Shown here one piece after another: positions 13,201 to 63,775 of a stretch of DNA of 64,000 bases (within the stretch, counting starts at the first letter, position 1; each line of letters opens with the position of its first letter). Location: the NCBI GenBank assembly GCA_034670405.1, contig JAXDDX010000001.1, positions 12,695,501-12,759,500 of the forward strand, in the 5' to 3' direction. The position numbers and the translations under genes were made by a program. Below the pieces are notes generated by a model, which was not told where the DNA came from, did no database searches, and saw only the letters and a list, made by a program, of their open reading frames with translations. The DNA is from Hoplostethus atlanticus. Taxonomy: Eukaryota > Chordata > Actinopteri > Trachichthyiformes > Trachichthyidae.

Positions 13201-15018
13201 TTGCACACAGCACACAAAAAGACACAAAACATCCTTGTTCAAAGTGATAAATGTGATTATTGAGTGCTTATGCAGAGACTCCTCAGCACCTTCCCCTGGT
13301 GTTGTCTCTCTGAATTACAACCCGTCGGTCTCTCCCTGTCTGCCTCCAGACACACACAGCAGAGTGATCTTGAAGTCTCCAGATGAAGATGACTTCCTCA
13401 GTACCTACATCAATGCTAATTACCTAAAAGTAAGTGAAACTGTATGTATTCCTAAGCAAAAGGACAAAGGCTGTTACCTCCACTATCATGCTTTCCTTGC
13501 CTGCCCAGGCACGGTGATGTACTAAAAATGTATTGTACACTCTCCCACTCTCTTCTGGATCTGAAGTCTTCTCACAATTCTTAAAAGAAAACAATGAAAA
13601 CGATACATGTGACAGGACGGGTTGTGTGTGCAGGGCTACGGGGGCGAGGAGCGTGCGTACATTGCCACCCAGGGCCCCACCGTCAACACAGTGGGGGACT
13701 TCTGGAGGATGGTGTGGCAGGAGAGAAGTCCCATCATAGTCATGATCACCAACCTGGAGGAGAAGAACGAGGTCAGCATGGAGACGAGGAGGGGAGAGGG
13801 ATGTATGAATGGATGTATGGATGGATGAGTGGCTGGATGGATGGACGGGCAAACTAATATCCAGTGTGTGTGTGTGTCCATTGTGTCTTGTAGAAATGTG
13901 CAGAGTATTGGCCCGAGGCCACTGTGACCCATGAGGGCATCGAGATCACTGTTGTCACGGTAACCCAGGAGGATGACTACAGTCTGAGGGTGTTCACTCT
14001 GAAGGTGAGACTATAAAGACACATGCAGTTCACACATGAAGGGTGAATACAGTGCACCTTTCCTGAGCCACTTCAATCAACGAGCTGTTATCCCAAAGAG
14101 ATAATGTGGTGAGGAGGTCCAAATGAAAAGAGAGATCTTTCTGACATCAGTGTCGGACGATAACATTGTAGATATGCTCTTCCTTTCTTAAATGTGTTAT
14201 TAAAAGTGTCCGAGTGTCTGCTGAAAAAGTTTTTAGATGAGGCTGAACGTGTCCACAGAGCCACAGGGTGAGAGTAATATTAGACCATATGATGCAGAAA
14301 AACATCTGACAGTGTGGGACTTGCCACCACATAAGAACCATGATGATCCAAGCTTTCCTTTTCGCTAAAGTAAATGTTTTCAACACATTGAGGATTTGTG
14401 AGGATCCATACGGATTCAACACAGACGTGTGTGTTGCGTCATGGTTTACTCTGCACTTTGATGCTGCCATAGTCAGAACTTCCAGTTCCATTCATCGGCT
14501 CATGATGGGTTGCTTTCAATTTAATTTAGGGTCATGGTGGCATTGGCACTTAGCAAACCAAACACGATAATTCAGTAAATGCACCCCTCATCTGATTACT
14601 AAGCACTAAGGGATCATTATATAACTGTGCTCTGAGTTAAAAGCGTGTTGTTCATTCATCTCCTCTGGTTTGTATTGTCTTCCTGCAGGACTAATAGTCA
14701 TTCAAAAGACTGACTGAAATAAGATGACAGAAATAAGACTCAGGCAGCTGATGGGTTTGATTATGTACAGTATAGGCATTGAAAAAAAACTGGCTATATA
14801 AGCTCTTTTTCATAACCCTCACTCTTTTTTGCTGTCTCGCTCTGCATTGTTGTCGTAGCAACTAACACCAAGGTAACAATTTGGATATACATGCAGAGCA
14901 AGTGGTGGATCAAAAATAATTCTCAGTGTGTCTGTCTCTTGACATATGTGTGCATGTGTGAGTGTGTGTATGTGTTCACACCTATATTTCATGCCTGCAT
15001 GGCCATCTGTGTGACTGT

Positions 15019-15086
<68 letters not shown>

Positions 15087-16467
15087 CTGTTTATGTATCT
15101 GTATGTGTGCCAGTGTGGGGGAGAGGAGCGCAGTCTGCGGCAGTACTGGTACACCTCCTGGCCCGATCAGAAGACTCCAGACAAAGCTCCGCCCCTTCTG
15201 GAACTGGTACAGGAAGTGGAAAGGGCCAGAGAGGAAGCCCCACCCACCAGTGGCCCTGTAATAGTCCATTGCAGGTAAGATTCAAAGGAGTGGCAGACAT
15301 AGCCACTTACAATAGGATAAACTAACATGGGATCTAGTTAAAGGGCTTGCAATAAACCCATGGTAGTAAAAATACAAATACAATTCAGAAAATTGCCCAG
15401 TTTATTAACAGCGGGAAGCCCTTACACTGCTGTCTTCACTATAGAGCTAATAGTATAAGCCACTTGGAACTGCCAATCCTCCCCTGTGCGATTTCACCGG
15501 GGAGGATTTGCCATTAATGAAATGAGTGGGATCAATGCTAATCAATACACCAGTCAATGCTGTCCCTGCTTCTCCACCCCCTCCTCTTTCCCATCACCCC
15601 CATATTTCCTTTTCCTCCTCCTCCTCATCCTCCTCATCTTCCACCTTTTTTCCTGCAGTGCTGGAATTGGTCGGACAGGCTGTTTCATTGCCACCTCCAT
15701 CCTGTGTAAGCAGCTGAGGACCGAGGGTGTGGTCGACATCCTGAGAACCACCTGTCAGCTCCGTCTGGACAGGTGAGACAGCATCCTTTGCTCTTATCCA
15801 TAGTTTAGTCCTCTCTTTAGTGCTTAGTGTGTCAGTGTAAAATCTTTATTAGAATTCATCAAATAGTTCATCAAATTTCTCCCCAGCAGCTCGTGCAGCA
15901 TAAGCCAAGTATATTTTTCCTCACTGGCAATGCTCTGGTTGTGCGTGCAGCGCGTTGTCGTGAACGTTTACGCTCAATTGTATGCTTCTTTTGGAGATGT
16001 TAAAAGAGGCTAAGATGGATCTACGGGGGCTAACTCGTGTTTTGTGGTCCTACGAACTTCAGTGGAGTTTCAGCTGACATGGGGATGCATAATGACTGAG
16101 TTTTCCTTTTGAATGAGTCAGCTAGCTCTGGGCTAGTGCGTGGCATGACATTTAGCTGACATTCTTATCCAAAGCAAGTTGAACACTGAATGAACAGAAA
16201 GGGGGTTCAGTGTTTTGTTGTAGGATACTTTGACAAACTGCCAAAGCTCTAGCATGCCATTACTGTATACCATTATAAGAATGTGCAGCTGAGCTTCTCA
16301 TGTAAATACCGTACGCTTGTCTCTCTGTGTTCATGTGTGTGTGTGTGTGTCTGTCTGTGTGTGTCTGTCCCAGGGGTGGGATGATCCAGACGGGCGAGCA
16401 GTACCAGTTTGTGCACCACGTCCTCAGCCTGTATGAGAAGCAGCTGTCTCACACTGCTGAGGAGTAG
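9978..16467 (+). CDS. ptpn5: ptpn5 (STEP): membrane-anchored protein tyrosine phosphatase, 12 coding exons
   Basis: Joined coding exons are 9978-10298, 10999-11121, 11289-11384, 11800-12056, 12267-12459, 12911-12995, 13350-13429, 13634-13771, 13894-14004, 15114-15274, 15659-15772 and 16374-16467. All junctions are AG/GT, phases agree, and the sum is 590 codons plus TAG (mammalian STEP61 is a little shorter). Seen: two hydrophobic stretches (about residues 89-115 and 164-186), a kinase-interaction motif [11 protein letters not shown] (207-217), the block [13 protein letters not shown], the substrate loop KNRY (350-353), WPD loop (484-486) with acid Asp486, the signature HCSAGIGR with Cys521 and Arg527, and the Q-loop QTGEQ (565-569). 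Family knowledge: STEP dephosphorylates ERK, p38, Fyn and glutamate-receptor subunits in neurons, and PKA phosphorylates the KIM serine (Ser216 here). The N-terminal 107 residues differ from mammals. The start is uncertain: ATG 9978, or ATG 10026 (MIRRLSSS). PTPRR and PTPN7 are the relatives; the KIM, KIS and C-terminus favour PTPN5. Confidence 0.95.
10999..11121 (+). CDS. ptpn5: ptpn5 coding exon 2: end of first hydrophobic segment and lumenal loop
   Basis: The acceptor CTCCCAG precedes GGG TAC TGG and the donor is GAC|GTAAGT; 123 nt, phase 0 at both ends. It encodes [16 protein letters not shown] and continues to PIFGMD. The opening is hydrophobic and continues the first membrane segment. 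Sequence similarity to mammalian STEP is low here; assignment rests on phase, position and hydrophobicity. Confidence 0.75.
11289..11384 (+). CDS. ptpn5: ptpn5 coding exon 3: second hydrophobic segment
   Basis: The acceptor GGCCAG is preceded by a CT-rich tract, and the donor is ATG|GTAAAA; 96 nt, phase 0. It encodes most of a membrane helix ([17 protein letters not shown]) that continues into the next exon (VVHMV) and stops at a basic residue (CKWR). This matches the second membrane anchor of STEP61. Confidence 0.8.
11743..11784 (+). repeat. ATTCA/ATTC short tandem repeat
   Basis: Tandem ATTCA units grading into ATTC, ending about 15 nt upstream of the ptpn5 exon 4 acceptor. Confidence 0.85.
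11800..12056 (+). CDS. ptpn5: ptpn5 coding exon 4: kinase-interaction motif
   Basis: This exon carries the docking site [11 protein letters not shown] and the [13 protein letters not shown] block, both near-identical to mammalian STEP, and ends in LQER. The donor CG|GTTAGA is weak. If it were missed, translation would run into the intron and stop after about 13 more residues, before the phosphatase domain. An internal ATG (Met200, about 11857) just before the KIM could start a cytosolic form. Confidence 0.93.
12267..12459 (+). CDS. ptpn5: ptpn5 coding exon 5: kinase-specificity sequence and start of the PTP domain
   Basis: It begins [17 protein letters not shown] (the arginine is split with exon 4), the conserved STEP segment after the KIM, and runs through [11 protein letters not shown] to LQAEFY. 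The donor is TAT|GTGAGC. Confidence 0.93.
12911..12995 (+). CDS. ptpn5: ptpn5 coding exon 6: substrate-recognition loop
   Basis: It encodes [12 protein letters not shown] and [16 protein letters not shown] is the phosphotyrosine recognition loop of classical PTPs. It ends in phase 1 at CCCA|GTGAGT. Confidence 0.93.
13350..13429 (+). CDS. ptpn5: ptpn5 coding exon 7
   Basis: It encodes [20 protein letters not shown] and ends NANYLK. The 'YINANY' element is the conserved classical-PTP motif. The donor is AAA|GTAAGT. Confidence 0.93.
13634..13771 (+). CDS. ptpn5: ptpn5 coding exon 8
   Basis: It encodes [15 protein letters not shown] and continues through DFWRMVWQE and [13 protein letters not shown], the conserved core of the PTP fold. 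138 nt, phase 0 at both ends. Confidence 0.94.
13894..14004 (+). CDS. ptpn5: ptpn5 coding exon 9
   Basis: It encodes [18 protein letters not shown] and continues to SLRVFTLK. 111 nt, phase 0; the donor is AAG|GTGAGA. Confidence 0.94.
14005..15113 (+). other. ptpn5 intron 9, 1.1 kb
   Basis: No coding sequence. It holds an X-box-like palindrome at 14849-14862 and a 59-nt TG run at 15026-15084 next to the acceptor. Confidence 0.8.
15026..15084 (+). repeat. (TG)n repeat beside the exon 10 acceptor
   Basis: 59 nt of perfect TG repeat in the sense strand of the pre-mRNA, 29 nt from the exon. Confidence 0.97.
15114..15274 (+). CDS. ptpn5: ptpn5 coding exon 10: WPD loop
   Basis: It encodes [19 protein letters not shown] and ends in VIVHC, the first part of the catalytic signature; Asp486 is the general acid. 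The acceptor has no classic pyrimidine tract. A 59-nt TG run sits only about 30 nt upstream. Skipping this exon (161 nt) would shift the frame. Confidence 0.94.
15659..15772 (+). CDS. ptpn5: ptpn5 coding exon 11: phosphate-binding loop
   Basis: It completes [12 protein letters not shown] (the serine codon is split with exon 10) and continues to [17 protein letters not shown] long pyrimidine tract precedes the acceptor CCTGCAG. Confidence 0.95.
16374..16467 (+). CDS. ptpn5: ptpn5 last coding exon: Q-loop and C-terminus
   Basis: It encodes [19 protein letters not shown] and ends [11 protein letters not shown] followed by TAG at 16465-16467. This is the typical STEP C-terminus. Confidence 0.95.
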
Positions 16468-19737: not shown

Positions 19738-21380
19738 GTGCACTTTAATACTTTAATATGTAAGAGAGATATTGATGAGACCTGAAGACCAAGACGTGTG
19801 TAGTGTCGCTCCTTCACTTTGTTATTTTATTTTGCAACACTTATGGCTCTTACAGACGTGTGTGTTGGCTTGGTGTTGCGCTGGAGATCTGAGATCCGAT
19901 TTTGCTGCTTCTACCTGCAAAAAAATAAACCTTGCACTACAGAATGCAGTTACCTATTGATACCACTAGGTGCCGGTATATACAACGTAATGCCTGTTCA
20001 CAGCCACAGTACCTTGTCTAGCTCAGGCACATTTTGATGGCAGGCGTAATGATGGGAACAAAAGACTATCAGGCTAACAAAAGAAAACTGATGGTACTGG
20101 CTTAATTTATAATTCTAATGTGCACCCATTTATTATTAGTTTTAGTTTTTATAGTTTTTAGTAGTTTTTATTCATTTGTTTTATTAGTCAATTTATGTAA
20201 ACCATATTTTAGCTTAGAGTAGATTTTTTGGTTCTATTTCCCTTACTTGTAATAAGGTATGCGACAATGTAATATTTCTTTAGCTTTATTTGTAGTGTTA
20301 GATTGTGTATTTTGACTTAAGATTCAAATGATGAATTTAGAATGATGAATTCTAGGTTTTGTGTGAAATTCAGCTGCACAAATCAATCATTATCTTTGAT
20401 AAATTATAATTTAAACCCATAGGCTTGTTCAGGCAGGCAATCATTCACAAATACTTTCTTGGAATATTTAAAAAAAAAAAAAAAAAAAATTGCATTTCTT
20501 GGTATTTTTGATCAATCTTATTATGCTATATGTCTTGCAGTAATGTAACATGATGTATATATTTTGCAATCTTAATGTACAATATAACAGTTGGACGTCT
20601 TTTGTGAATATGATCGATTTGTATTAATCTGGTGATGTTTGGTCTTATGGCTGTGGGTAAATTACGAGTGAAGTTATTTCCTTCTTTTGTTTCCTGTGTT
20701 TATTTCCTATGTTTATGTTATGTGTTTTATTGTATTTAATGTGGTTTTAATTGTTGTTCATTGTGTGTTTTTATATTGTGTCACCTTACAAAACACCAGT
20801 CTAATATTCCTACAGGCACTTCTAGTGTGTCTGTGGTACTCAATGAGTTTATAGCGACGTTATCGTACTTTATGGTTTTTTAATCTCCTATGTTATTACT
20901 ATAGGATTTTCTGTATAATTACTACCTATAGTAACGGTATATTTTTTTGTTTTGCTTTGATATTTGTATAATTTGCTCTTCATCTAAAATTGACCACTGC
21001 TGTTCTTTTTTGAACACTCTATGCAAACTCAATTTCCCTTAAATATATTTTGAACTTAGTGGTAGTGTTCAGGGATATAGCGGAGAGTAAACGCACCTAA
21101 ACTCAATTCACCCATGTTTTATTTACCAACTTTTTAAGCTGACGTAAATCTTATTGAGATAAATCATTTATAATATACATCATAGTAAGTAGTGTCAAAC
21201 TGGTGTAAGTCTTAGGGTCTTTTAGGGAAAAGGCGTTATGTTTTTCTGAAAATGCAATCGATTTTTTTCTCATATTGGTGGTTGCTTGGCATATGATAGT
21301 CACCTACTGGACGCCAACTAACCTCACCTTTTAATTCACCACTACAACACTGGTGCCAGTTCATTTCTCAGGGACGGCAG
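19738..21380. other. AT-rich intergenic spacer
   Basis: This lies between ptpn5 and the dusp8 promoter. A poly(A) run is present at about 20469-20489. There are no exons or long frames. Confidence 0.6.
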
Positions 21381-21560
21381 GAGAGCCAGAGCTGTGTGTG
21401 TATCAGTGCAGCCCCGCCGCGCACTGCGCTAATCATGTACGCGTCTCCTTTAAAAAGCCGGACTGTCCCTTTAATCCGCTGATCAGAACGCTGACGTCAT
21501 TCAACTCATGAGCCGCCGGCTCTGATTGGTTGGAGGTGACGTCAACCCCGAAGATTTTTT
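21380..21560 (+). promoter_or_regulatory. dusp8: Probable dusp8 promoter with two CREs and a CCAAT box
   Basis: A locally GC-rich stretch with CpGs sits in an AT-rich neighbourhood. It contains two perfect TGACGTCA palindromes (21492-21499 and 21537-21544) and a reversed CCAAT box, GATTGG (21524-21529), between them. No convincing TATA box lies downstream of the CREs. The assignment to dusp8 is by position and strand; CREs bind CREB/ATF factors. Confidence 0.6.
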
Positions 21561-21929
21561 TTTCTTTTTTTTCCCTCTCCCCTCTCCCTCCTGAACCATG
21601 ACCTCATCCTTAGTTCATGGAAGTGCTAAAGTGCACCTTCTGTATCCCCCCACCCCCGTTTTGCTAACAAATACCTAGCCTAGCAAATGTTAACCTATCC
21701 CTTCCCGACCACGTCACCTGGCCCGTTCAACCGCAGAAATAATTTGTATCACTGCACTTTAATGTCTCGTTTGTTCCTGGCGCTGTCACCCTCTGTCAGC
21801 TGCAGTGTCCCCTTGACCCGACAAGTAAACACTGACCGTCCCGCTCCCATGGAGAAAGCTGCCGCTGTCCCTTCACACATGGAGGCCAGCTGAGTAACAA
21901 GGCTACACCAAAGCCGTGCGGAGACAGAG
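21560..21929 (+). other. dusp8: Probable dusp8 non-coding first exon
   Basis: Sequence after the promoter ends in a strong donor, GACAGAG|GTGAGT, at 21929/21930. The transcription start is not visible. The frame at 21687-21893 begins with ATG and reads through CR- and SP-rich sequence to a stop; I take it as a chance or upstream frame, not a known protein. Confidence 0.5.
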
Positions 21930-23738
21930 GTGAGTGTGTGTGTGTATCGATTAGAATAGAAACTATGGTCGCTGCTGTCGAGAAAGCTAGCTCTGAAATG
22001 CGTTGCTCCCTTTACCCAGTTAGCTTACGTTAGCAGCGGCGGCTATCCGTGCCTGCATCCCCCGCTGCTGGTCTGTCAGTGCGCACACCACTATGCGCCC
22101 GCCTTATAATGGGATTTAAACCCGTCCAACCCGGAGTGATCGATTCCTTCTTTTTGACAAGCACCTCGTCTGCTCGTTTAGTATTGACTTGTTTTAAAGG
22201 TAGGTACAGTCTTGTGCATTTCTTTTCAATTTAATTCGCGCGCCGCTGCGTATAATCATAGCCTGTCCGATCAATGGTGTGTTCATTTTCGCATGCGGAG
22301 ATATCCACGCGTCACAACAACTTGACAGTACATATACACAGGAAAGGTTTCCAATTCAAACAATGTGCATTGAGCATTTCATTCTGATTTTACGGAAATT
22401 AAACAAACAGCCATTAAGAGCAATGAACACTGCCCGCATTATGTTCTATTCTTATTTCCAATCTAGGTCGGTTTATTATAGTGCGCTACGGCGCTCACCC
22501 TCCATCTCTCATATCTGCGGGGCATGAGGCATTGTTATTATCAGGCAGGCCATAATGTCCCATCTATTTCTTTGTGCGTCCTATCCCGTTTAGTGATCGA
22601 AATATTTGTGGTTATTGCAGTCTTCCAGAATGATTTTTTTCCCCACATTTATTGCATTTTATTTTTATGCAGCTTTTATGTTTTGTTATGAAGGCAAGAT
22701 ATTTGTTTCATTTGCATCGGTCTCTGTGTCGTGATCATTGTTATGATTGAGACTGGGGTAGGCCTAGTTTGTAAAGGCACCGTAAGCATTACCGCTCAGA
22801 TTGCAGCAACTAAACTGGGAGTGTAGGCTATTGACTAGACAACATCAAAAGGGTTTACACCTGGTTATGTTGTTTACATGTTAGTGATGGTGATGATAAT
22901 GATGATGATTTGGCTCCATAGCCAGTGTCCCCCCTACATATATTTACTTGGGATGACTCACCACAGTATCAGAGGCTAATCATGAATTGATTTTCCAAAA
23001 TGACATAATAACATATTAACAGCACCTCTTGCTCTTGAGGTTTTCCCCTGCTATTTATATCTTAGAAACCAGAGCCTGCCATCACCACATATTAACACTA
23101 ATATTGCTGCAGACCATTTTGTTATCTCAATCCAGCTATTTAAATGCATTTCAACCAAATACACATCCATCAATAGGCATTTATTCTAGGTGGATGTAGG
23201 TCAAAACAGGTCTAACACTGGGGTGAGATTCACACATTGAACACAAGAAGAAAAAGTGTTATGTTATCTCACTAGTAGTGCTGTAGAGAGTGAGGACTCC
23301 TTACTGGTTACCATGTTGTCTCACAAGTTTAAGATAGTGCCCTCCCCCTTCTCTCTCTGTATGTGTGCGCACATTTGTAGGTGTTTTCATGTCTGTGTGT
23401 GTTCCCGTCTGTGAGACTGTATATGGGTGTGTCAAAATTGTCAAAGTAAATTCTGCTCACAACTGATTCTGTGCAGGTTAATTTAAAAGAAAAATCTGCT
23501 ATTGAAGACACTATTAATAATCTTCCAAATAGCATTTTGAACATTACTATTACCCTTTGGTAGTAATTTGTCCAATATAATTTGGGGCCCTTATGTAATC
23601 TTCCTGCAACCCAAGTTTGGGTCCAGATCCAGACTTTGGAAAACACCATTCTTTTTTAGTTTTGGCATTGTGCTGGTTTTAGGCCTGAGTCTCTGGATGG
23701 GTGCATGCACATCTTTAAAGTGTTAATAGACAGCACAG

Positions 23739-28654: not shown

Positions 28655-28919
28655 GGTGGCCTCGCAAGGACCCCTTGACATCATGGCCGGAGAGAAAGGG
28701 CCGAGTAAGCGGAGCGCCATGGACATCAAACGCCTGGCGGGCCTCATCCAGAGAGGAACGGGACGTTTGCTGGTGATTGACAGCAGGACGTTCTCTGAGT
28801 ACAACGCGTCCCACGTGCAAGGTGCGGTCAACGTTTGCTGCTCCAAGCTGGTGAAGAGGCGCCTGCAGCAGGACAAGGTGTCTGTCACTGAGCTGCTGCA
28901 GCCCAATGGCAAGGTTAAG
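28655..28919 (+). CDS. dusp8: dusp8 first coding exon: rhodanese half with KIM
   Basis: Coding begins at ATG 28683 (28 nt of leader if the acceptor at 28654 is used). It encodes [20 protein letters not shown], then [17 protein letters not shown] and [14 protein letters not shown]. It ends K|GTAGGT in phase 0. A second good acceptor lies upstream (TTCTGCAG, exon from 28488) and would add a 14-codon upstream frame to the leader. Confidence 0.93.
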
Positions 28920-36795: not shown

Positions 36796-39505
36796 TTTTT
36801 TTACACTGCATTGCACCTCATAGCTGTGTTACACCCCTCTCACTCTCTCTCTCTCTATCACACACACACAAGCACCCACACACCCACACACACACACGCC
36901 GCCATCAGGTTCTCTCTACTACACAGTACTGTTTCAGCTGATTGTATCACCGGATATTTGGTGTGTAAACTTATATTGGACTAGACGGTATCTCACCTCA
37001 TTTCAGCTCAACATTAATATAACTATCGGATGCTCCTGGCACGTGTTCGGTGTTATGAGTGTGTCGGTGAAATGTCTTTTAAGATGAGAGTCGCACACAG
37101 TAGGGCAACGAGTTGGAAAGAGTTTGAGACTCAAACAGTTGGACTTGTGGTTTGTGACGTGCCTTAGTGTCTCCAAGTTTTATTACTTAAATGTTAATAT
37201 TGGTGTTAGATGCAGGCTAGTGTGGAGACAGAGATGGGATGGGTTGCGCCAGACCACAGCTATTCCTAACCAGGCTCCAGGGACTGACCTTGTCCTGGCT
37301 AAGTCACCTGCATGGCTGTCTGCCAAGCCGCTCTGCTACAGCTGCTATGTAAGCAGAAACATAATCAGACACACTAAACACGGTACCCCCCCCCCAGCAA
37401 CACACATACACACACACATATATAAAACACTGCAGCTTTTAGATATGTTTTACAGTAGAGGAGAAACACAGCAGCTGTGTATACCGTGGGCTATCATCAC
37501 CGGCTTGCTTTTCAGCATATAGAAAGAGAAGGAGGGGTTGGTGATGCACGAGTGCAGTTTTGCCCAGAAGCTAGATGCTATTCAAAGGCACATTTTAGAT
37601 GAGAACGTAAGGTGGGGGTATGTAGATATAAACAAAGAGATGAAATGGGTTAAAGAACACCAGGTTCTGCTCTCTTCCCCCCGCCCCCCACACCATCTCT
37701 TTTCTTTTTACTGTCATTCTGCTTCTCCTCCACCCTTTCTTCTTCTTTGTTTCTGTTTCATCTCTATGCATCTCGTCTCTGCCTCCATTTCATCCACCTC
37801 TTTCTCTTCTCCACTACTCCATTAACCCCCCCCCCCTCTTCCCCTCTCCCTCCCTGTCGCCCTGCTTCCTCCTCCCTCTCTCCTCTCCTGTCCAGTGGTG
37901 GTTCAATGATGCAGTGATTCATAGCTGCAGTAGGTGCTGCCTGATGGTCATGTGACCAAAGCCTGCCTGACAACATGGGGAACAACACTGCCTGGCTGGT
38001 GTGTGCAGGCACATGCACACGCTCACACTCTTGCGCAAACACACACACACACACACACATCCCATATGCACTCATTGTCACACTGGCGCATGCTCATATC
38101 TCTCCTTTTTCTCACAACGCATTGTGACAAGGCAAAAACAGCATCACACTGACGCATTGATGAACGCCCTCCTAAATGAATGTATCTGGATTATTTCATT
38201 TTATTTATAGTGTTTCCCTTCACAACAAACCGCCCTCGCAACAGTTTCTGCACACTAAATAATACAAGTTAAATGACGAATATTCAGGACAAATTCATCA
38301 TTCATAATCTTATGCCGAGCTTGATGACTTACCCTGGAATCACCTTTACTATATCATGCTTAGTGATTGGCAGTGATGCAGGCTTTGTGTATTGTCATAA
38401 GTCCTGGCAGCCTATATTTTAGATACCTTTCTCTTCCTTGTTGCTGGTTCCTGGTGTACTTCAAGACAGCAGCAGTGTTCTAGTGGTTGGAGAAATCAGA
38501 AGGTCGCGGGTTTGATCCCTGTGACAGCTGGTTTCCATTTCTAACAAAACCTCTTGTAGCAGGGCACTGAATACCCCCTATCTGGCCAAGAGGCGATACT
38601 TCTCAGAACACCTATATATATATATTACATGTACATTTAGTTTCCATGTATCTGTATGTCTCAAAGGGATGTGCAGACATGCCACAAATTCTTAATGCCA
38701 ATTTGATACTTCCTAATTCCAGGTAATAGCAACTAGTTCCTTGTTCCTCGTTCATTCCTTGTTGTTGGATGCTCAAAATTCTTTGATAATAACAATGATA
38801 ATCCAGTTGCCTCTCTTCCTTGTTGCTGTCATTTGTGCAGGTGGAGCTGGGCAGGAAGCAGGAAGTTGTGGTATACGACCAGAGCTCCAAAGAAGCGGGG
38901 CATCTGTCCAAAGACGGCTTTGTGCACATTCTCATGGGAAAGTTGGAAGGCACCTTCCACAGAGTCTCTCTGCTCACTGGTATGCACACTCTGGTTTGTT
39001 TGTTTGTTTGTTTGTGTGTGTGTTTGTGTTATGTGTTATCCTGACTGTGAACAGGTGCACCTCACCTCAAAGCCAGTGATTTGAGTGAAGCTGTGTGTAA
39101 TGGCACTGTGTGGTCAGCAGATGTCACTGATGAGCGTTACCCCGTTCCTGAATTGGTAACGCTAATCAGACTATCAAATATCTGACATCAGGTTCACACG
39201 TACGGTATATGTGGAGATAGGAAAGAGGGGAGGAAGTGTAAAGCCATGCTGGCTGTATACAAAGCCTCTCTGATGTCTTTTGATGTTTAAGCCTCACTGG
39301 AGTCTTTCTCTTACCCAACCCCACTGAAGTAAAGCTGAAGCTTAACTTCCAATCCTCCAGCCTTATTTACCACCGTTATTATCCTGTCATAGTAGCCACT
39401 AAGCACACTAAGACTTATAATTGAGCCCGAGTGAGACTGTTAATAGCCTCGTTGAGTTAATAACTTCTCAATAACTCTGACTGCAGCTTTTTAAGGGAGG
39501 AGGTA

Positions 39506-52800: not shown

Positions 52801-55800
52801 AGATTCGGTCTCCTCCAGCGGCTGTGTTAAGTCCTGTGCTGCTTTGTTTCCGTAGCTGGACTTGTGGCCTACATGTTTCTCATTCCATAGTAAAGTACCA
52901 GGAGTCTGTGGCCTGTCAGATGGATGATGGCTGCCGACCACTGGCTTGTTTGGTGTTTTCGTCACCTCCTGTCCTCTCTTCCTCTCTCCGCTCCGTTCTT
53001 TTTTTTTGTCTGCTCCTCCCTTTTCCTCTCCTTCGCTTTCCCTTTATCCGCTCTTCTTCCTCTCCTCTCCCGTCATCTTCTCTCTCTCTCTCTCTCTCTC
53101 TCTCCCCCGCCGTTTCTCTCCTCTCCGATCAGCTCCTCTCGTCCTCTCCTCTCTCTCTCTGTCCATTCTCATGCTTGACGACTAGAACATAGTGTCCAAA
53201 CACAGGCGCGTAAGACAAGAGCCAGCACAGGAAATGTGGTGAAGTCACACACATTCCCCCACCTTCGGAGACAAATCAGCTTTTAACACACTGACAGTCT
53301 TAACCCCCCCAGCGGTGTGCGTAGAAGCTACATTTAAGGCATGCGATCCAATGTAACAGTCTTATGTGTGTTAATGGAAGATGTAAAATAAATAGTTTGA
53401 AAAGAAAGAATTAACACAGATAACAGTCATCTTAACATGAACATAAAAGACCGATAGATGATTCTCCCATGCTGCATCTCATGTATATGTTAGGCATACT
53501 TTGAAGCACTATTAAGTTAATAACATCCTTTGTGTTTCGAAGCACGTCATGCACGCCGACACAGACCTATTTTCTTTGCTCTCCATACTCCACAACACAG
53601 AGACCATTCAGTTTTGCAACAGAGTGTATGTATCTGCTGAACAGCCCGATAGCTGTGTCTCAGCCTCCGTCTTTCCCTGATAGAGGCCTGCTCTGCAGCT
53701 AGGCCCCTGAGGTGGCCACATATTTGTTGGGTGAGTAAGGAATGTGGTTACATGCCTTAGACATTAGCTATGACGGAGAGCTGGCTCCACACGAGAGGGA
53801 GGGTGCAAGGGAGGTAGCGGAGGCGGAGAGAGGAGGAGGAGGGGGGAAGGGGAGGAGAGAGGGGGGGTGGGGGAGGGAGGGAGGGAGGGAGGGAGGGAGG
53901 GCAGAGTCTGAGCTCACGGCAAGTGAGCTCATTCACCCCCAGAGCGAGAGGAGAGAGTGCAGCTCCGTCATCCTCTTTACAGAGAGAGAGAGAGAGAGGG
54001 AGAGAGAGAGAAGGGAGGGGGAGGAGTGTAAGCCAGCGACTGAGCGAATGAGAGAGGAGGAGAGCGGAGCAGCACAACAATAGTGGGCTGCTCTTCTGGC
54101 TGTGGGCTCACACACACAGAGTGAGAGCACAGAGAGACACAGACGCTCGGTAGCACAGCTGCAGGCAGAATACAGCTGGCGTATAGATACAGGCATTAGA
54201 GGTGCTTTGGGTTTTTCTGCTCTCGCTCTCTGGTGACCGCTCTTTACAAAACCACACATTTTAAACATTCACCCTACAGCATTTTAGGGATTTTTGTAGC
54301 CGTTGTATTCTTATGGGATTTTGGCCATAGGTGGACTTCCTTATGGACTTTTTGAGGAGCATGTCCACAGACATTTTGGAGTAGTGGTGCCTTTTTTTTT
54401 GTACAGGGGTCCATTCTCTGAGGGTCATTGCCTGGACACTGGAACAGCTGACTTGAGGAGAGTGGACTTGGGCACCACCAGAAGGAGTTTTAAACTCAGA
54501 GTTTGGGCATACCTCAGATAGCCCTCTAAGGAAAACACTTCTGAACAACTGTTTGTTTGTTCTTACATTTTTTTTGCGGGGGGGGATTGATCGCTCAGTC
54601 CGCGGTGTGGACTGAAGGAGCCCCCGAACATTTGAGTCTGTGTGCATTTGTGCGTGCGTGTGAGTGCGTTTTTCTGGGGGATGCCTCTGGATGTGGTGAT
54701 CACCCCAGCGGAGGACTGTTTTTGGCCGGACCTTCAGGACACAGACATGAGGCTGAAGATCAGGGTCCGCCGGATGAAGGAGGGCAGAGAGCTACGAGGT
54801 GTGTACCTACCTGGGGATAGAGAAGGAGATGGGGGGGGTGTAAGGGTATGAGAATATCCCTCTTTGGCACTTTACATGTGGAGGATGTAGGCCTTTGTGT
54901 ACGGAGGTTTACAGGGCTATCGTACCTGGTGAAGATGCAGAGAACGTGGGAAACGGGTTTACAGGGATTTGGAGGAAATGCATGTAAATGCATGGAAGTA
55001 AGCATGCTGAGGATCTGGCTGTGGGCTACACAGCTGCTCAGTCGGCTAACGCAGGTTGAGAAGATGTGTAGGAGGGGGAAAGCCCCTGGCAACGCTTGAT
55101 GTAGTACAAAGGCACAGTGGATTCCCAGGTATCACAATATTGCAGAGATATGTGATTTTTTTTTTTTAGGGATGTGATTTACTGGTACAACAGCATGAGA
55201 GAAGACATTGTGGAGATCCAGCACGCTAATGGTTTTCCCACTTTTTTGTTTGCGGAGTTAATGAGTTTAGAGAAACAGAATAGGAAGAAGGGGATTAAGA
55301 GGATGACATCATGAAGAACAGAAGCGATAAAAAAGAGGGGAAAGGGGGAAAAAGAGAGCTCTGACCCGCGGTATGACATAGTGCTCACGCTCTCTCAGCC
55401 TGTGGTCATTCAGATGTAAAACTATCACAAAGACTCTTTCTCTCTTTCTTCTCCTCTGCTCTTGGCTTTCTCTCTATCTCTCTTTTCTCTCTCTCTCTCT
55501 CTGCAGAATAGTGTCTTGTGGAGATTATGCTATCAATATGTGTGCTCTGTGCAGTGTGCACTGCAGGTGTTTAACAAAACACCCTTCACACAGAGAGATG
55601 AGGCAACGCAGAGCAATGGTATTGTGCATTTTTAACCGTTGAAAAACCTTATTCTGCACGAACACACACATGCACTGAATGTACAAAATACGAGGAACAC
55701 CTTCCCAACATTGCGTTGAAGCCCCTTTTGCACAATCCACATCACAGTTGTCTCAAAGCTTAAAAGTCCTTTTCTAATTCTACTACTCTTTATCCATATC

Positions 55801-56943
55801 ACCTCCTTCATCATTGCAATAGATTTAATAAGATTCAATAAGGGATAATTGCTTTCACTTTGATTCATCTCGTCAGTCAACTTCATGAAAAGTGTGTAGT
55901 ATTTTATAGTCAGTGTATAAACTGCACACAGTGTATAAATACACATTTTACCACTCCAAAATATGTGTTTGCGTATGAAACATAAAATGCATGTTAGTGT
56001 TTTACCTGGGCTCTTTGTGTGTATAGGTGTGAGGATATGAGAATGCATGTGTGTAAATGTAGACCCTGGATGCATAGAGGGCATATCAGAGAGCTGGTTC
56101 AAAGCAGTTTCCACAACACCTGCCGCTGTTCACACAGCCAGGCTGTACCGCTCAAAGTGTCATACTCATTAGCTCAGAGACAAAGAAAGTAGAAAGAAAT
56201 CACACATCTGCCGTCAGCAGGTGAAAATAGAGGAGTCGTGTCTGGCACCGGTTATTCTGAGGCAGTTTGCGACAGGCCCTGTGGGAGAGCAACATTACTG
56301 ACTGCTCCAGACTTCAAGCACTTCACGGCAACACATTTGTGCGTAATTATACATACGTTTGCACATAGGTAAAATGTATGATTGCAGTCTAGTTTGCGCT
56401 GGCTGTCCTGGCATAAACGACACTAATAAAGCATACCTCTGAAACAGCAGTGGGTCAAAATGACAGAGGTACAGCGAACAGAGCTAGTTACACATCAGCC
56501 AAGATGATATGTAATCATACAGCCGTTCCCAGCCGTCATCAACCTGCCATCCTGCGTGGAAAGCGATGACCTCATCCTACTAGCTCATCTATTGCCTATG
56601 GATCTAGATATTTCTGACAGACGTGGCTATCAACACACACACCCCCCCCCCCTTCAAACACACACTCCCCTTTCTCCTGCTGCAGCACAGCCTTTGTGGA
56701 GCTGAGTGGGACATGTGTGCAATGATGTCATGTTGTGGGGAGGTTGAGGGGGGGGGGGGCACATTGAGATGCTAATGTCCCCCTCAGAGCAGAGGGGACA
56801 GCTGGAGGGGCACAGAGGATGGCGTCATGTCTTCCCCATCTGAACCACAGAGGAGAACGAGCAAGGGGACGGATGGATGGATGGAGAGAAAGATGGAGGA
56901 TGGGGAGGGGTGTAGGGCAGTCATTCAGGCAGATCCCCCCGGG

Positions 56944-56981
<38 letters not shown>

Positions 56982-58223
56982 TGTGTGTGTGCACGGTTGC
57001 CTCATGTGTGTCCCCCCTCCATTAAGAGAGATGAGTTAAACAGGGCAACTGGAAGCCACACAGAGATTGAAACACACTCACACACACAGGGGGGTTGGGG
57101 GGTGTTGGGGGGGGGGTTGGCTAGTATTGACGAGGCAGTCAATTGTACCAACAGCAGTGATGTAACAGCAGATCTCCCCCATATAACAGCCAGGCGCTGT
57201 GTGTCTGTGTCTGTCCAGGTCAATACCTCTGGGGTCCCAGCTCCATTCTTCTTCCACCCTTCTGCACCAATTAACCCTGCAGCAAGGTCCGCTAATCAGA
57301 GCAGCTCTAGAGGCAGGATTTGATCTTGTGTAACTTTATAAATAGTCGTTTTTTCCTCCTCACTAATCTGTAAATAAATGAGATATATTTGTTTTTGGGA
57401 GAAGATAAGACCCTGCACCTTTTTTTTTAAAATGCATTGATCTGTGGACATCAGCCTACTTGAACGAAGAGAGTATTGAGCAGCGAGAGCATTCAGCACC
57501 AGCGAACAAGAGCAGGGGGGGTGGGGGGAGTTGAGTGCTCTGGCTCTGACAGGGCGAGGGGGGAAAAAAAAAAAAGCGGTTGCATAAGTGATGAAGTGGG
57601 GAGAGGAAAACGGAAAAAGGAAGTCAGCGCTGGCTGGAGTTGCCGATGGCGACACAGTGCCCTCTTTCCCGGTTGTGTGTACTTGTTGTGTGTTACTCGT
57701 ACGTTTTCGCGTCGGTGCGTGTTCACAGTTGGGTTAGTCACATCCTGTCGTCCTGGTGCCATTCCCAAAAGTACAAAATGTAGGACGTAGTGAGGTACAG
57801 CTGGTAATTAGTGGCCCAAAATAAAAGTTTGAATAATATTGCCTTGTAATAAAAGATCATCACTTCAGCATGTGACTCAAAATGGCTCTCCTCACAGAAG
57901 CCTTTGTCTCCATTCCACAGAGAAAGCGTCTGTATACATTTTCTATAATTAAATTGTGGTCTACGATTCAGCCTGGGACCCAGATGAGGTACATTTGGGC
58001 TTCTTAGGAAATGTTGGACTGGATTTTGTAACCAGGAGGGGTTTTTTTTTTTTTTTTTTTCTTTCTATCTCTAAGATGTACCTATTGGTCATCATACTGG
58101 TATGAAGATGAAGTCAGCTGTCCCAGTTGACTTTCTGATGTCATCTTCATAGACAGCTGGGCTGGTGTGTGTGTGTGTGTGTGTGTCACAGGGTATTTTC
58201 AGTGATATAAGTATGAGTGTACA

Positions 58224-58256
<33 letters not shown>

Positions 58257-58373
58257 GTTCGTGTCCTTAGATTGTAATTGATGGATGTGTCATTGTTTTC
58301 TTTTGGAGAAAGTGAGGACATGTCTCCGTTTTATTTGGTGCTTACTGTTGTGTTAGTATGTTCACGTAGCCTT

Positions 58374-58424
<51 letters not shown>

Positions 58425-60042
58425 TGTGTGTCTGTGTGTGTGTTTGCATGCCTGAAAGGTTTTACTCCACCTTGACAACCCACAGGGGGGGACACAATGA
58501 GCCAACGGTCAGCCACATCATCCCTCTCCGTGTTGTCATAGCAACCTTAACTAGAGGGGGGGTGGGGGGTCAGGTGACTAGGTGACAATAACGTGCTATC
58601 TCCTTTAACCATTAACACTGGCCCCGCTGTAAAACCTTGGACAGAAAGGAGGTGTTTGCAATTGTGTTGACGCAATGTCACTGTAATGTAATAGCTCTCA
58701 ATAGACCAGGCAGGCAGGCACTCAGTCCTGATCTCTTATCTCTGACTTCAGTCCCTCTGTATGCCAGTAACCCCTTACTCACTCTGTGGCTGGCCAGTTT
58801 CCTTTGCTGTTCTTTTTTAACACGAGATGAGGTCGACTCCAGTAATCAGGACTGTATTTACTTAATAATGACCGGAGGGAGGTCAAAGGCATACCATACA
58901 GCGTTATGTATAGGTTTCATTTCCCTACATACACACAAACACACTTTCTCTCTTAAGATGCAGAGCGACACACACACTGCGTCTCCACTGTGGAACGTCC
59001 TGTCTTGTGTCCTTCTAACAACTCTCTAACAATGACCATTCATAGAAAGGGAAATGGTCTCTGTGTGACGTGAGGCTTTTCCTGTTGATTTAACAGTCTC
59101 CAGGAACATACTACTTCCTCACATGCACAGATAAATGCCTTTGACTGTGGCTATATGTGGCACCATTTCTTTTTCTGTGTGTCTTTGTGTGTGCGTGCGC
59201 TCACCAATAGCTTGGGAACACTGAAACCAGGAAGAACCCCCTTCAAAGAACTACCTGGAAGAGAGCCTTCCTTCCTCTCTCCCTCTGCTTTATCAATTAG
59301 TGATGTGTGAGAGAGAGTCCATGCTAGCGCCGCCCATACAATTGTCAAAAAGGGGGCAGGGGTTGAAATTGTACAGGTGCCAATATGGTCAAAGGCCAAA
59401 TTGCTAGGTACAAATCTACACTATAGAGCCGAGTCCTACCAGCATATCTCTCCTCCTTCACGTTTGGCTTTCTTCTTTCGTTCTCGCTAACCCCCCCCCT
59501 GCTCGTATCTGTCCATCTATCCTCCCCTATGTGTGCGCTATGCCTGCCGGCTTCATGTGGAGGGCTGATGTCATTGCTTCACCGGTTGCCATTAATAGCT
59601 GGAAACAGACAGGCCTTCTTCACTCTGCTCTTAAAGGGGCAGTACACCCAGAATAGCACTAGGTCAAGAGGATACACCGCCTTGTATTCTCACTCCGTCT
59701 CTCACCGATCCTAATGCAGTACGGCAGACTGATCCTGGGTCGGACCAGGGTTAGTCAAAGACGTGGTGTTTGCAGTAGTTGGAAATATCGTGGCAGCATT
59801 TCTCGTGTTATTCTCTGAGCGCTCACGTGAGCAGTTTATTCTTTATTCTTTACTCTAGATCTCATATCCGCAGAGTGCACAATACGTGCTGCTGACACCG
59901 TGTGCTCTGTGTGTGTGTTGGCCGGCAGTTGGTACATGAGCAGTACAGCAGGGTGTGTGTTACAATGGAAGGCTATGTCCTGCCTGCACTATGCTGTGTG
60001 TGCTACTTTAGAACAGTGATGTCATGTCTCTCTCACTCTCAC

Positions 60043-60100
<58 letters not shown>

Positions 60101-60351
60101 AGATTGGGTCAGGCGGGGCTGAACCTAGATTAGGTTCTAATCCCTTTGCTGGGGCTCAGGGTTTCCTTGAAGCACTCCCTTCTCCTCTCCTCCCTCCTTC
60201 CCTCGCTCCTCAGCGAGGTCATTACCCCCCCCACCCCCCCACCCCCGCCTCCCTCTGTTGCCCCCACCCTGTAGTTATACAACCGCGGTAATGCAGAGTA
60301 ATGATGAGTGTGGGTGTTTGTGTATGTGTGTGCAGGAGAGGGAGAGAGTAG

Positions 60352-60402
<51 letters not shown>

Positions 60403-63400
60403 CAGACAGAGGAGTATAGAAAGTAAAAGTGAATAGTGAGCATATGTTTACTGTAAGATTATGTGATTATGTCCTCAATGGTTTGTGTGTTTCTACAGGA
60501 CACAATTTATGGGGGGGGGTGTGTGTGTGTCTGTGCATGTGCATATGTGTGTGTGTGTGTGTGTGTGTGTGCGTGCGTGTGCGTGCGTGCGTGCGTGTGT
60601 GTGCGGTGCGGTTGTCAGGGGGATGTTACTGGGCCTCTGTCCTGGCCCTGCACCTGTGGCCTCTCTCATTCCCCCAGCCTGACGCAATGCACTGCTACAG
60701 GACATGAGCTCATGCAGGAAACAGAGCCACACACACACACACACATGCCAAAATCGGAGCCGCCTGCCTCTTAAAGGGCCAGACGCACACACATTCCTCG
60801 CCGCCAAGCAGCTAACCCGACTCACACACAGAAGCACAGAGAGCCTCATTCTGCTCCTGTTACACTAAGCTGGGGTCCAGACGTTGTAGCCCAGATCCTC
60901 CGCTGAAAGTCTCTGGAGTGTCTGTCTGCTTTGGTAATGGTGGTGCAATGGGTTTTTTTTTTCAGTGCTCTTGATGAGTTCTCACATTGCAGTAGAGTCT
61001 TTGCATAGGTCCCAATGTGTTATGTGGTTGCTCTATGGAAAACCAACTGGTGTAACTCTCTCTCTCTTTTCTCTCCTTTCTCTGTAGGAGGTTTTGCTGC
61101 TTTCTCCTCCTGCTTCCCTGGCCTGTGTGAGGGGAAGCCTGTGGTGCCTCTACCTATGAGCTTGTCCCAGCCCTGCTTGCCTGTGGCTAATGTAGGACCC
61201 ACCCGCATCTTGCCACACCTCTACCTGGGCTCACAGAAAGATGTCCTCAACAAGGTGACAACAGTCTCTAATGTATAAGAATATATACTTTGGCCACTTC
61301 TTTCACGTCCGTTCTTCACGCGCTGTTTAAGGTTGCCATTGAAAACGAATGGAAATGAGTGACTCTTTATTGTTACCTGGCAACCAAACATGTCCTTAAC
61401 GTCCTCCTTTTATCTCCCGCTTTGTAGGATCTGATGGCTCAGAATGGCATCACGTACGTGCTGAATGCCAGCAACACCTGCCCTAAGCCAGACTTTATCA
61501 GCGAGAGCCACTTCATGCGAATCCCTGTCAACGATAACTACTGCGAAAAACTGCTTCCCTGGCTGGACAAAACCAATGAGTTCATTGGTAAGAGGAAAAA
61601 ACTTAAGTAGGAAGATATAATGTGTTACGCATAACCGCCAATGAGGAAGGAAAAAAAAAGAATTAATCTCAAGTTATGTGTTAAGAATTCAATACGACAC
61701 TATCCAGACTTTGTTACAGTTGGTAAATGCTCACATGCAGGGTAACAATAGGGACGGGTACAACACATCCGTTTAAATGACCCCCTGCACTCTTCCAGGA
61801 AATGGTAGTGCGCTTTCAATGGGCGTTGATTGTCTCCAGAGATTTGCTGCTAAAGACCGAGCCCTGTCCGGGGTGGTGTGGTGTGGTGTTGTGTATATTT
61901 GTGTACGCTTGTGTGTATTCATTCCTGTTTGTTTCTCCCCACAGACAAAGCTAAGGTGTCAAACTGCAGAGTCATTGTGCACTGCCTGGCTGGAATCTCG
62001 CGCTCAGCAACCATCGCCATTGCATACATCATGAAGACAATGGGCTTGTCATCAGATGACGCCTACAGGTACACATTCACCCCCATCTGCCACCAGCTGA
62101 GCTTAGGTGTCAGACCCAGTTAAAAGGCAACTCACTGTTGAAAGAAATGCTAGACGATTCTCTCAAACCCCCCAGTCGTGAGAAGTGGAATTGTTAGATG
62201 GCTGCCAGAGAAGGCAGTAGGCACAATAGGCTTTGCTTTGCCTTGTCTGGAAAACACTGCCACTGGATCATGTGTTGTGTAGCAGTGAAAGAGTTCACAC
62301 CCAAGGCCTAGTTCATCTTGGGTAATTCTGATCTTAGAAAGTCTGATGTGTTTCCAGGCATGTCTATGAAGTTCAAACCCATGCTCTACCTTAGGCCATA
62401 GATAGTAGTCACCCTATTTTCCAGAGTTTTCTTAAAATTGGCATTGTAGAACTAATGTTTTCTCACTTTGTTCCCTCCTAACAGGTTTGTGAAGGACCGG
62501 AGACCTTCAATATCCCCCAACTTCAACTTCCTGGGTCAGCTGCTGGAGTTTGAGAAGGGCCTGCGATTACTCCAAGCTTTGACCTCTGGCTCTGATGATA
62601 AGAGTTCAGAGGGGAAAGCTCAACAACAGATCTCAGAAGTTAATGGGGTCAGCATGGGGTTTGAGGTAAACGGTCACCACAGTAACCATGAGTCATCCGT
62701 GGCAGAGCCACAGATCCCTCCAGTACCCAAGTTGCCGTCACCTACCTCTCTCCAGCAGGGCTTCAATGGCCTCCACCTCTCTGCAGAGAGGATCATGGAC
62801 ACTAACCGGCTCAAACGTTCCTTCTCCCTGGACATCAAGTCAGTCTACTCCTCCAGCAGCCCCCACTCTCCACGCCTCGCACCCACACACTCTGAAGATG
62901 TCCCCAAGCTCTTCAAGCTTGATAGCCCAGGAACAAGTTCCTCCAACGGTGTCTGCCCCCAGTTTTCCCCCGCCCTAGACAGCCCTGGCTCCTTGGATTC
63001 ACCCTTCCCCTCACCAGGCAGTGGGGGCAGCATCGGAGGTTTGGGGCACGGAGGAAGTGAGGGCGTCGTTCGGTCTGGTGGTTCTTCCTCATCCAGACCC
63101 AGGAGGAAAGCCAAGCACAGCTCTGGCTCTGGCCCTGGCTGCAGCCCCAACAGTTCCCCAGTCCACTCCCACCCATACCAACCCCCCCAGTCCCTCAGCC
63201 TGTCGCTGGGCCACAAGAGCCCCAGCCCGGACGAGAACCTGAAAGGCTCCCTGCTCCTGTCCTTACCCTCTCTGCCCTCTCTGGGGTCTGGGGCCATGTG
63301 GACCAAACACAGAGACACTGTGCAGGCCACCACACCTGTCACCCCTGTCACCCCCACTGCAGACGCCCCATGGCACTTCGGAGCAGAGGAGGGCGTCGAG

Positions 63401-63775
63401 GGAAAGATGGAGCTGGGAGGAGGAGGAGACCGAGGGAGAGACGAGTCGTCGGTGAGGTTCGGGAGCAGCTCGGCATACGTGGCGTTCGGGTGCAGCGAGG
63501 GTGTGCGACTACGAGACAAATCCCAGAGGGAGAAGCCCTTAGCGCCTCAGACACAGAGAGACCATCGGGACTCGACGTCGTCATCCGCGGTGAGCGTGTC
63601 CAACAGCACAGTTGCAAACAGCAGCGGGCCCGTGTCAGAGAAGCAGTTCAAGAGGCGCAGTTGTCAGATGGAGTTTGAGGACGGCATCTCCGAGACGCGG
63701 TCCCGAGAAGAGCTAGGGAAGATCGGGAAGCAGTCTAGCTTCTCTGGGAGCATGGAGATCATCGAGGTATCCTGA
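28683..63775 (+). CDS. dusp8: dusp8: dual-specificity MAP-kinase phosphatase, 6 coding exons
   Basis: Joined exons are 28683-28919, 38841-38979, 61088-61254, 61428-61587, 61945-62068 and 62485-63775, giving 705 codons plus TGA with all phases agreeing. The human protein is roughly 80 residues shorter. Order: N-terminal rhodanese-like domain (about 10-125) with the basic MAPK-docking motif KLVKRRLQQ (Lys58, Arg59, Arg60); linker [16 protein letters not shown]; catalytic domain from about 150 with Asp217 (VNDNYCEK) and signature [10 protein letters not shown] (Cys248, Arg254); then a long Ser/Pro-rich tail with conserved islands [11 protein letters not shown] (about 385-395) and [11 protein letters not shown] (about 663-673) and the terminus SMEIIEVS. 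Family knowledge: DUSP8 (M3/6, hVH5) inactivates JNK and p38 by removing phosphate from Thr and Tyr. The close relative DUSP16 is less likely because the tail islands and terminus match DUSP8. The a/b teleost paralogue is not determined. Start: ATCATGG at 28683 has A at -3 and G at +4. Confidence 0.96.
29541..29580 (+). mobile_element. Retroelement 3' tail remnant
   Basis: GGTATTTCCCTACGGGGATC followed by AATAAAGTATC resembles the widely shared 3' end of teleost non-LTR elements. Too short to assign to a family. Confidence 0.4.
30765..31075 (+). mobile_element. Tc1-like DNA transposon, internally deleted remnant
   Basis: It starts with the terminal-repeat-like TACACTACATGGACAAAAG. From 30820 it reads the Tc1 transposase block [10 protein letters not shown], then after a frameshift [25 protein letters not shown] and PAQSPDLNP up to about 31035. 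The N-terminal DNA-binding domain and the final acidic catalytic residue are missing, so it is dead. No matching right terminal repeat was recognised. Confidence 0.75.
31410..31607 (+). repeat. (CTGT)n tetranucleotide array
   Basis: 198 nt of CTGT/CTCT units. Frames on both strands through it read LSVCLSVC or DRQTDRQT and are not genes. Confidence 0.97.
36403..36442 (+). repeat. (GT)n microsatellite
   Basis: About 40 nt of GT repeat; a CA repeat follows at 36766-36793. Confidence 0.95.
38471..38605 (+). mobile_element. tRNA-derived SINE fragment
   Basis: A-box-like TAGTGGTTGGAGAA at about 38481 and B-box-like GGGTTTGATCCC at 38508-38519 are followed by AGCAGGGCACTGAATACCCC, the form of the common fish SINE phrase ending GGCACTTAACCCC. 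The spacing fits a tRNA-related head. Confidence 0.55.
38841..38979 (+). CDS. dusp8: dusp8 second coding exon: rest of rhodanese domain
   Basis: Acceptor TTTGTGCAG, then [19 protein letters not shown] and [15 protein letters not shown]. It ends in phase 1 at ACTG|GTATGC. The VVVYDQS block is typical of the DUSP8/16 rhodanese domain. Confidence 0.94.
40454..40530 (+). mobile_element. hAT-like MITE fragment
   Basis: It starts CAGTGGTTCTCAACGTTGGG, the terminal-repeat motif of Charlie-type hAT elements, then GGGGTCC-rich sequence. The other end is not recognised. Confidence 0.45.
41759..41816 (+). repeat. (GT)n microsatellite with GC interruptions
   Basis: GT repeat broken by GTGCGTGT units. 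Confidence 0.9.
42207..42237 (+). repeat. (AAT)n microsatellite
   Basis: About ten AAT units. Confidence 0.95.
43879..43930 (+). repeat. (CA)n microsatellite
   Basis: About 50 nt of CA repeat. Confidence 0.95.
45474..45550 (+). repeat. (GT)n microsatellite
   Basis: GT repeat with two GTTGTG interruptions; a (TA)n run lies at 45700-45726. Confidence 0.95.
47853..47896 (+). repeat. (CA)n microsatellite
   Basis: About 44 nt of CA repeat. Confidence 0.95.
48634..48682 (+). repeat. (GT)n microsatellite
   Basis: About 49 nt of perfect GT repeat. Confidence 0.95.
49528..49825. repeat. Facing (GT)n and (CA)n microsatellites
   Basis: GT at 49528-49581 and CA at 49769-49825 form a long inverted repeat with about 190 nt of unique sequence between. 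Confidence 0.9.
51516..51546 (+). other. G-quadruplex-forming motif
   Basis: Runs of three to five G (GGGAGGGTGGGGG, then GTGGGGG and GTTGGGGG) with loops of one to three bases. Confidence 0.6.
53074..53104 (+). repeat. CT microsatellite
   Basis: It sits in a CT-rich stretch (52975-53160). Three overlapping frames here are repeat translations. Confidence 0.9.
53870..54013 (+). repeat. GGGA and GA repeats
   Basis: GGGA units at 53870-53900 and GA at 53981-54013, just upstream of the candidate internal promoter/exon. Confidence 0.9.
53920..54680 (+). promoter_or_regulatory. Candidate internal promoter and 5' leader in the dusp8 intron
   Basis: About 600 nt of repeat-poor unique sequence follows the GA repeats and leads into the candidate coding exon at 54681. 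It contains several upstream ATGs and stops. No TATA box is clear. This is inference from composition and position. Confidence 0.35.
54681..54798 (+). CDS. Candidate alternative first coding exon (39 codons, phase 1)
   Basis: The ATG is at 54681 with G at -3, and an in-frame TGA lies at 54633-54635. The frame reads [17 protein letters not shown] and ends in a basic segment, [16 protein letters not shown]. Third positions are GC-rich and the sequence is not repetitive. The donor CGAG|GTGTGT at 54798 leaves phase 1. That equals the phase entering dusp8 exon 61088 and predicts a 619-codon product: these 39 residues, then [10 protein letters not shown] and the DUSP8 catalytic domain and tail. I do not recognise the peptide. 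It could instead start a downstream gene such as mob2, which neighbours DUSP8 in mammals. Confidence 0.5.
54799..56940. other. Intron sequence, no gene seen
   Basis: AT-richer than the surroundings and nearly free of microsatellites between 55500 and 56600. No exon recognised. Confidence 0.5.
56945..56992 (+). repeat. (GT)n microsatellite
   Basis: GT repeat with one GTGGTG break. Confidence 0.95.
57089..57120 (+). other. G-quadruplex-forming motif
   Basis: G tracts of six, six and ten separated by TT and TGTT. Confidence 0.65.
58379..58442 (+). repeat. (GT)n microsatellite
   Basis: GT repeat with TCTG interruptions; smaller GT runs lie at 58162-58187 and 58227-58252. Confidence 0.95.
59631..59656 (+). 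mobile_element. TTAA-type MITE end, weak
   Basis: TTAAAGGGGCAGTACACCCA resembles the terminal motif of common teleost MITEs with TTAA targets. Only one end is visible. Confidence 0.25.
60045..60604 (+). repeat. Three (GT)n microsatellites
   Basis: GT at 60045-60097, 60354-60399 and 60546-60604, the last with GCGTGC interruptions. Confidence 0.95.
61088..61254 (+). CDS. dusp8: dusp8 third coding exon: linker and start of catalytic domain
   Basis: It completes a split glycine and encodes [17 protein letters not shown] and, further on, [17 protein letters not shown]. Enters in phase 1 and leaves in phase 0 at AAG|GTGACA. The LYLGS block opens the dual-specificity phosphatase fold. Confidence 0.96.
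61428..61587 (+). CDS. dusp8: dusp8 fourth coding exon: general acid loop
   Basis: It encodes [18 protein letters not shown] and continues to [20 protein letters not shown]. Asp217 in VNDN is the predicted catalytic acid. Ends in phase 1. Confidence 0.96.
61945..62068 (+). CDS. dusp8: dusp8 fifth coding exon: phosphatase signature
   Basis: It encodes [20 protein letters not shown] and [18 protein letters not shown]. Cys248 and Arg254 lie in HCX5R. The AYIMK block is typical of the DUSP8/16 subgroup. Confidence 0.96.
62485..63775 (+). CDS. dusp8: dusp8 last coding exon: end of catalytic domain and long tail
   Basis: It encodes [18 protein letters not shown], closing the catalytic fold, then a tail of about 405 residues rich in Ser, Pro and Gly. 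Conserved islands are [11 protein letters not shown] and [11 protein letters not shown], and the end is [12 protein letters not shown] with TGA at 63773-63775. An antisense frame at 62845-63519 is a shadow of the codon bias. Confidence 0.96.

Follow-up and report, generated by a model that had tools for sequence, protein, structure and literature searches.

The dusp8 gene carried by the window analyzed here, a stretch of 64,000 nucleotides from Hoplostethus atlanticus, raises the question of whether vertebrate DUSP8 is made in two forms from two promoters. An original prediction had placed, at positions 53920-54798, an internal promoter and a new first exon that would lead to a DUSP8 deprived of its MAPK-docking domain. 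A related arrangement has been described in chicken, where intron three of DUSP8 contains a region marked by DNase accessibility (DNase-seq), H3K4me3 and H3K27ac, and where CRISPRa activation of this region raised the short DUSP8 transcript XM_004941446.5 in CRISPRa/RNA-seq experiments (PMC12536144). XP_004941503.2, the short chicken protein, is read in the DUSP8 frame and has no rhodanese domain, and the authors proposed that intron three holds an alternative promoter, termed 'GW1' (PMC12536144). They reported more of the short than of the long transcript in muscle, located the top GWAS signal of their study for muscle inosine and IMP in the promoter region of the short isoform, and noted that what such a DUSP8 does in chickens had not been explored; in one place the text counts the short accession as a long isoform, apparently by mistake (PMC12536144). 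Going by titles and the starts of abstracts, this is the only report of a DUSP8 isoform lacking the KIM or rhodanese domain among the matches listed, two other chicken or poultry papers also mentioning DUSP8 (PMC12794477, PMC10525433).

In the fish window, six coding exons of dusp8 on the plus strand can be read together from 28683 to 63775 and encode a long isoform of 705 residues. The first coding exon (28683-28919) contains the rhodanese region with the KLVKRR docking motif, and the second one (38841-38979) ends the rhodanese region with a phase 1 donor. They are followed, after a 22-kb intron, by an exon entering in phase 1 (61088-61254), a phosphatase-domain exon (61428-61587), the exon containing the HCLAGISR active site (61945-62068) and the last coding exon with the stop (62485-63775). 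The clearest CpG-rich stretch of the window lies at 21.0-22.75 kb (21001-22750), with an observed to expected CpG ratio (o/e) of up to 1.17 in 500-base windows, and is a likely position for the standard promoter of dusp8 together with a non-coding first exon. Assuming that one non-coding exon precedes 28683, the intron between 38979 and 61088, which follows the rhodanese exons and hosts the candidate exon, would be the same intron (three) as that of the chicken promoter.

Upstream of dusp8 and on the same plus strand, a classical tyrosine phosphatase gene lies in the region 9912-15773. Among five stretches scanned against Pfam, three matched Y_phosphatase (13139-13519, below the curated cut-off, 13613-13825 and 15459-15773), while 9912-10337 and 11740-12090 had no match. 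A stretch near 12.27 kb is reminiscent of the KIM-type PTPN5/PTPRR/PTPN7 family, and because of this resemblance the upstream gene and dusp8 may be two MAPK-directed phosphatase genes in tandem.

The candidate alternative first coding exon (54681-54798, plus strand) opens with an ATG at 54681 and runs for 39 codons plus 1 base, ending in phase 1 in front of a GT donor (GAG|GTGTGT, 54799-54800). An in-frame TGA is located upstream at 54633, and 29 of the 39 codons have G or C at the third position; the stretch around the frame is 58% GC and the encoded peptide is not low-complexity. Scored with a donor matrix, the site at 54799 is the sole one above 3 bits in 54300-55300, and it is among the 35 of 4435 plus-strand GT sites of the window that score at least as high (54799 counted in). 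Joined to 61088, the frame stays open across the other downstream exons until the usual stop codon and yields a product of 619 residues with a single terminal stop (54681-54798 followed by 61088-61254, 61428-61587, 61945-62068 and 62485-63775). All these structural claims of the original prediction, namely the frame with its upstream stop, its GC-rich third positions, its phase 1 donor and the in-phase join, were thus found again; the figure of 619 codons also stood, although it describes the whole short product and not, as had been worded, the part after the join. On the minus strand opposite the candidate exon, 176 codons lie open from stop to stop (54264-54791), probably by chance.

How much do these features tell about function? 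A frame with a strong donor in phase 1 appeared in 38 of 100 intron-sized sequences simulated with a first-order Markov model and in 337 of 600 with a second-order model. The combination of frame, donor and phase match is common by chance and, since more than half of the second-order simulated introns hold it, the in-phase join alone is weak evidence. This is one argument in favor of an alternative which we regard as unlikely but still to be taken seriously, namely that 54681-54798 is not a translated first exon but a chance coding-like ORF next to a good GT, in a part of the intron that is rich in GC and GA and may be an enhancer or a non-coding RNA. The intron itself contains a second phase 1 frame with a strong donor, at 42390, which was rejected as an alternative first exon on its codon score of -0.76.

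Codon content is the stronger evidence, and that of the candidate is like that of a real exon. Using a per-codon score from a table contrasting dusp8 with the surrounding intron, the 54681 frame reaches 0.215, as compared with -0.28 and -0.02 for the other two frames, and falls within the range of 23 windows of real dusp8 exons (0.10-0.59). When codon content was added to the chance test, none of the 600 simulated introns matched the candidate (0 of 495 hits, the best at -0.03 versus 0.215), in a test whose Markov null is blind to local GC, whose thresholds were set from the candidate itself and whose codon table comes from one gene, dusp8. Within the window, counting both strands and all phases, an ATG frame of 39 codons or more is coupled to such a donor 17 times, and only two of these pairs reach 0.215, the candidate and the true first coding exon of dusp8 (28683); a 94-codon frame antisense to the last dusp8 exon, with a donor at 63014, nearly matches at 0.19. 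These results, along with the sequence complexity of the peptide and the published chicken promoter in apparently the same intron (PMC12536144), argue against a chance ORF. When the donor requirement is dropped, by contrast, the candidate's score is equaled or exceeded by 12 of the 475 open windows that start with ATG elsewhere than in dusp8, which counts for a chance ORF. We assign three of these to likely exons of the phosphatase gene lying upstream and a fourth to the strand opposite them, a placement relying on the two stretches (9912-10337 and 11740-12090) for which Pfam gave no family, and the other eight, seven of which are on the minus strand, are not tied to that gene.

The chance reading also draws on the putative 5'UTR and promoter stretch (53920-54680, plus strand), which is partly GA-rich, low in CpG and devoid of a TATA box. 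The CpG o/e is 0.31-0.41 in 500-base windows starting at 53501-54251 (ranks 116-184 of 254) and 0.57 in the window holding the candidate exon (54501-55000, rank 37 of 254, counted from 0). A CpG-island promoter is not supported, with a ratio that is low just upstream and reaches only this value over the exon. In 53500-54680, neither TATA, MEF2 nor CArG patterns had a match, and initiator matches were not in excess (17 versus 21.3 expected). Among the 14 promoter and enhancer patterns counted over this interval, only the CAGCTG E-box was clearly in excess, with sites at 54156, 54173 and 54445 (3 versus 0.68 expected); the overlapping CASSTG pattern had 3 matches versus 1.59, CAGGTG none and MCAT 1 versus 0.44, and of the remaining 10 patterns nine were without a match, the initiator being below expectation. 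Two of the E-boxes are 17 bp apart (54156-54178), upstream of the candidate start; this is a post hoc lead only, and the pair is worth a look because the chicken short isoform is expressed in muscle. The 5' boundary claimed at 53920 found no support: nothing was found marking a start site, and a transcript starting at 53920 would run through four ATGs before reaching the one at 54681. No Rfam family reached the gathering threshold in 38000-64000. Collectively, promoter signals in the sequence are poor. The idea of an internal promoter for a DUSP8 without rhodanese and KIM stands in part: the analogy with chicken intron three (PMC12536144) and the real-exon-like codons speak for it, whereas the lack of a TATA box and the low upstream CpG speak against it.

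Two further readings keep the exon and assign it to another transcript. In one of them, which we hold to be rather improbable, 54681-54798 would be the leader exon of a different gene, for instance mob2, located beyond dusp8 and transcribed across it, with the dusp8 exons skipped in splicing. Alternative first exons of MOB2 join a shared exon in phase 1, which counts for this reading. Human MOB2 has moreover been drawn, in a 2015 review, as a 295-kb gene with DUSP8 nested inside (PMC4394429), but its coding region was later cut from 295 kb to 17 kb (PMC8282625). In addition, comparing a human MOB2 protein with the window gave matches at chance level only (E 3.5 or more), none of them a convincing mob2 exon, and the chicken transcript arising from this intron keeps the DUSP8 frame (PMC12536144). 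In the other reading, an upstream acceptor would make 54681-54798 part of an internal cassette or poison exon. Seven acceptor-like sites in 53500-54760 (for example at 54407 and 53983) and the in-frame stop at 54633 are compatible with it; such sites are nevertheless common, the same criterion picking out 89 across intron 3, and an ATG that follows an in-frame stop and opens a frame with the codon usage of real exons would better fit a first exon, so that an internal exon appears very improbable.

On balance, we favor with reasonable but far from full confidence the reading that dusp8 has an alternative first exon whose coding portion is 54681-54798, in a short isoform driven by an internal promoter. 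In the proposed mechanism, a promoter located just upstream of 54681, in the intron between the rhodanese and phosphatase exons, would start a transcript whose 5'UTR leads into the ATG at 54681, and the candidate exon would be spliced in phase from 54799 to 61088; we infer here both the promoter and its transcript, and dusp8 rather than another gene as the splice partner. In the predicted product, 39 new residues would stand in place of the rhodanese/KIM domain, ahead of an unchanged phosphatase domain and long C-terminal tail. The claimed loss of the rhodanese region and KLVKRR is borne out by the exon structure, KLVKRR being encoded by exon 28683-28919, outside the short product. HCLAGISR is retained and, as anticipated, so are Cys248 and Arg254, which in the short form become Cys162 and, by counting, Arg168.

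The new N-terminus had been proposed to provide a replacement docking or localization signal. It is acidic over residues 1-22 (-6) and basic over residues 23-40 (+6), and neither a forward D-site nor a KIM-like match was present in the peptide. Its one reverse-D match recurs in 1293 of 5000 shuffles of the same peptide and an NLS-like match in 965 of 5000. This part of the original prediction did not hold, and a replacement docking motif was rejected as being no more than expected by chance in peptide shuffles. Because docking-like matches occur only at the shuffle level, the plain prediction for the short product is an undocked DUSP8: with the rhodanese/KIM domain gone, it should lose the main means of recruiting MAPKs and, without KIM-mediated contact to JNK/p38, would act in the manner of an atypical DUSP. 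Similarity searches with the peptide gave one chance-level match in the PDB (E 0.38), a below-cutoff Pfam match when the next exon was included (E 0.31), one weak plasmid match from Dietzia (E 0.1), taken as chance, and none in literature text. A back-translated 11-residue pattern had no exact match in viral or prokaryote contigs. By their descriptions, the sequence collections compared with the peptide do not consist of vertebrate genomes, and these negative results are silent on conservation.

The central idea has already been published for chicken; the novelty would be to find the arrangement in this genome as well, and it would then be an old one. More tentatively, birds and this fish may share an old intronic DUSP8 promoter. 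Vertebrate DUSP8 may then long have been a two-product gene, with one phosphatase that docks on JNK/p38 and another, atypical and undocked, whose N-terminus would be conserved in its own right and whose expression may be driven in muscle, as hinted by the two neighboring CAGCTG E-boxes. Were this so, the short isoform would not be peculiar to birds but a long-standing second product of the gene, and knock-outs or antibodies directed against the rhodanese exons would miss the short DUSP8.

Among known systems, MKP genes yielding products with altered N-terminal docking regions include DUSP4 and DUSP6, isoforms of which lose N-terminal sequence; these are, however, different genes with different transcript mechanisms. 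Typical MKPs are defined by a KIM within a rhodanese domain, and the predicted short product, without 28683-28919 and 38841-38979 and with no KIM-like motif in its new N-terminus, falls outside this definition. It would resemble atypical DUSPs (DUSP3, DUSP14, DUSP23 and others), which likewise have a phosphatase domain without KIM. In a review, the KIM is described as recruiting MAPKs, while three of the 20 KIM-less DUSPs are known to dephosphorylate MAPKs directly, so that a few atypical DUSPs act on MAPKs without it (PMC13147768). Atypical DUSPs are nevertheless encoded by separate genes, whereas the short product would come from a typical MKP gene as one of its isoforms, with the long C-terminal tail of DUSP8 still in place.

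The closest parallel is the chicken short DUSP8, of which the candidate is probably the counterpart. If spliced to 61088, the fish product would, like the chicken one, keep the DUSP8 frame and the phosphatase domain with rhodanese and KIM gone, from what is presumed to be the same intron. The chicken isoform has transcript, chromatin and CRISPRa evidence, whereas the candidate described here is known from its sequence, and the likeness between them lies in the presumed intron position and the predicted product architecture.
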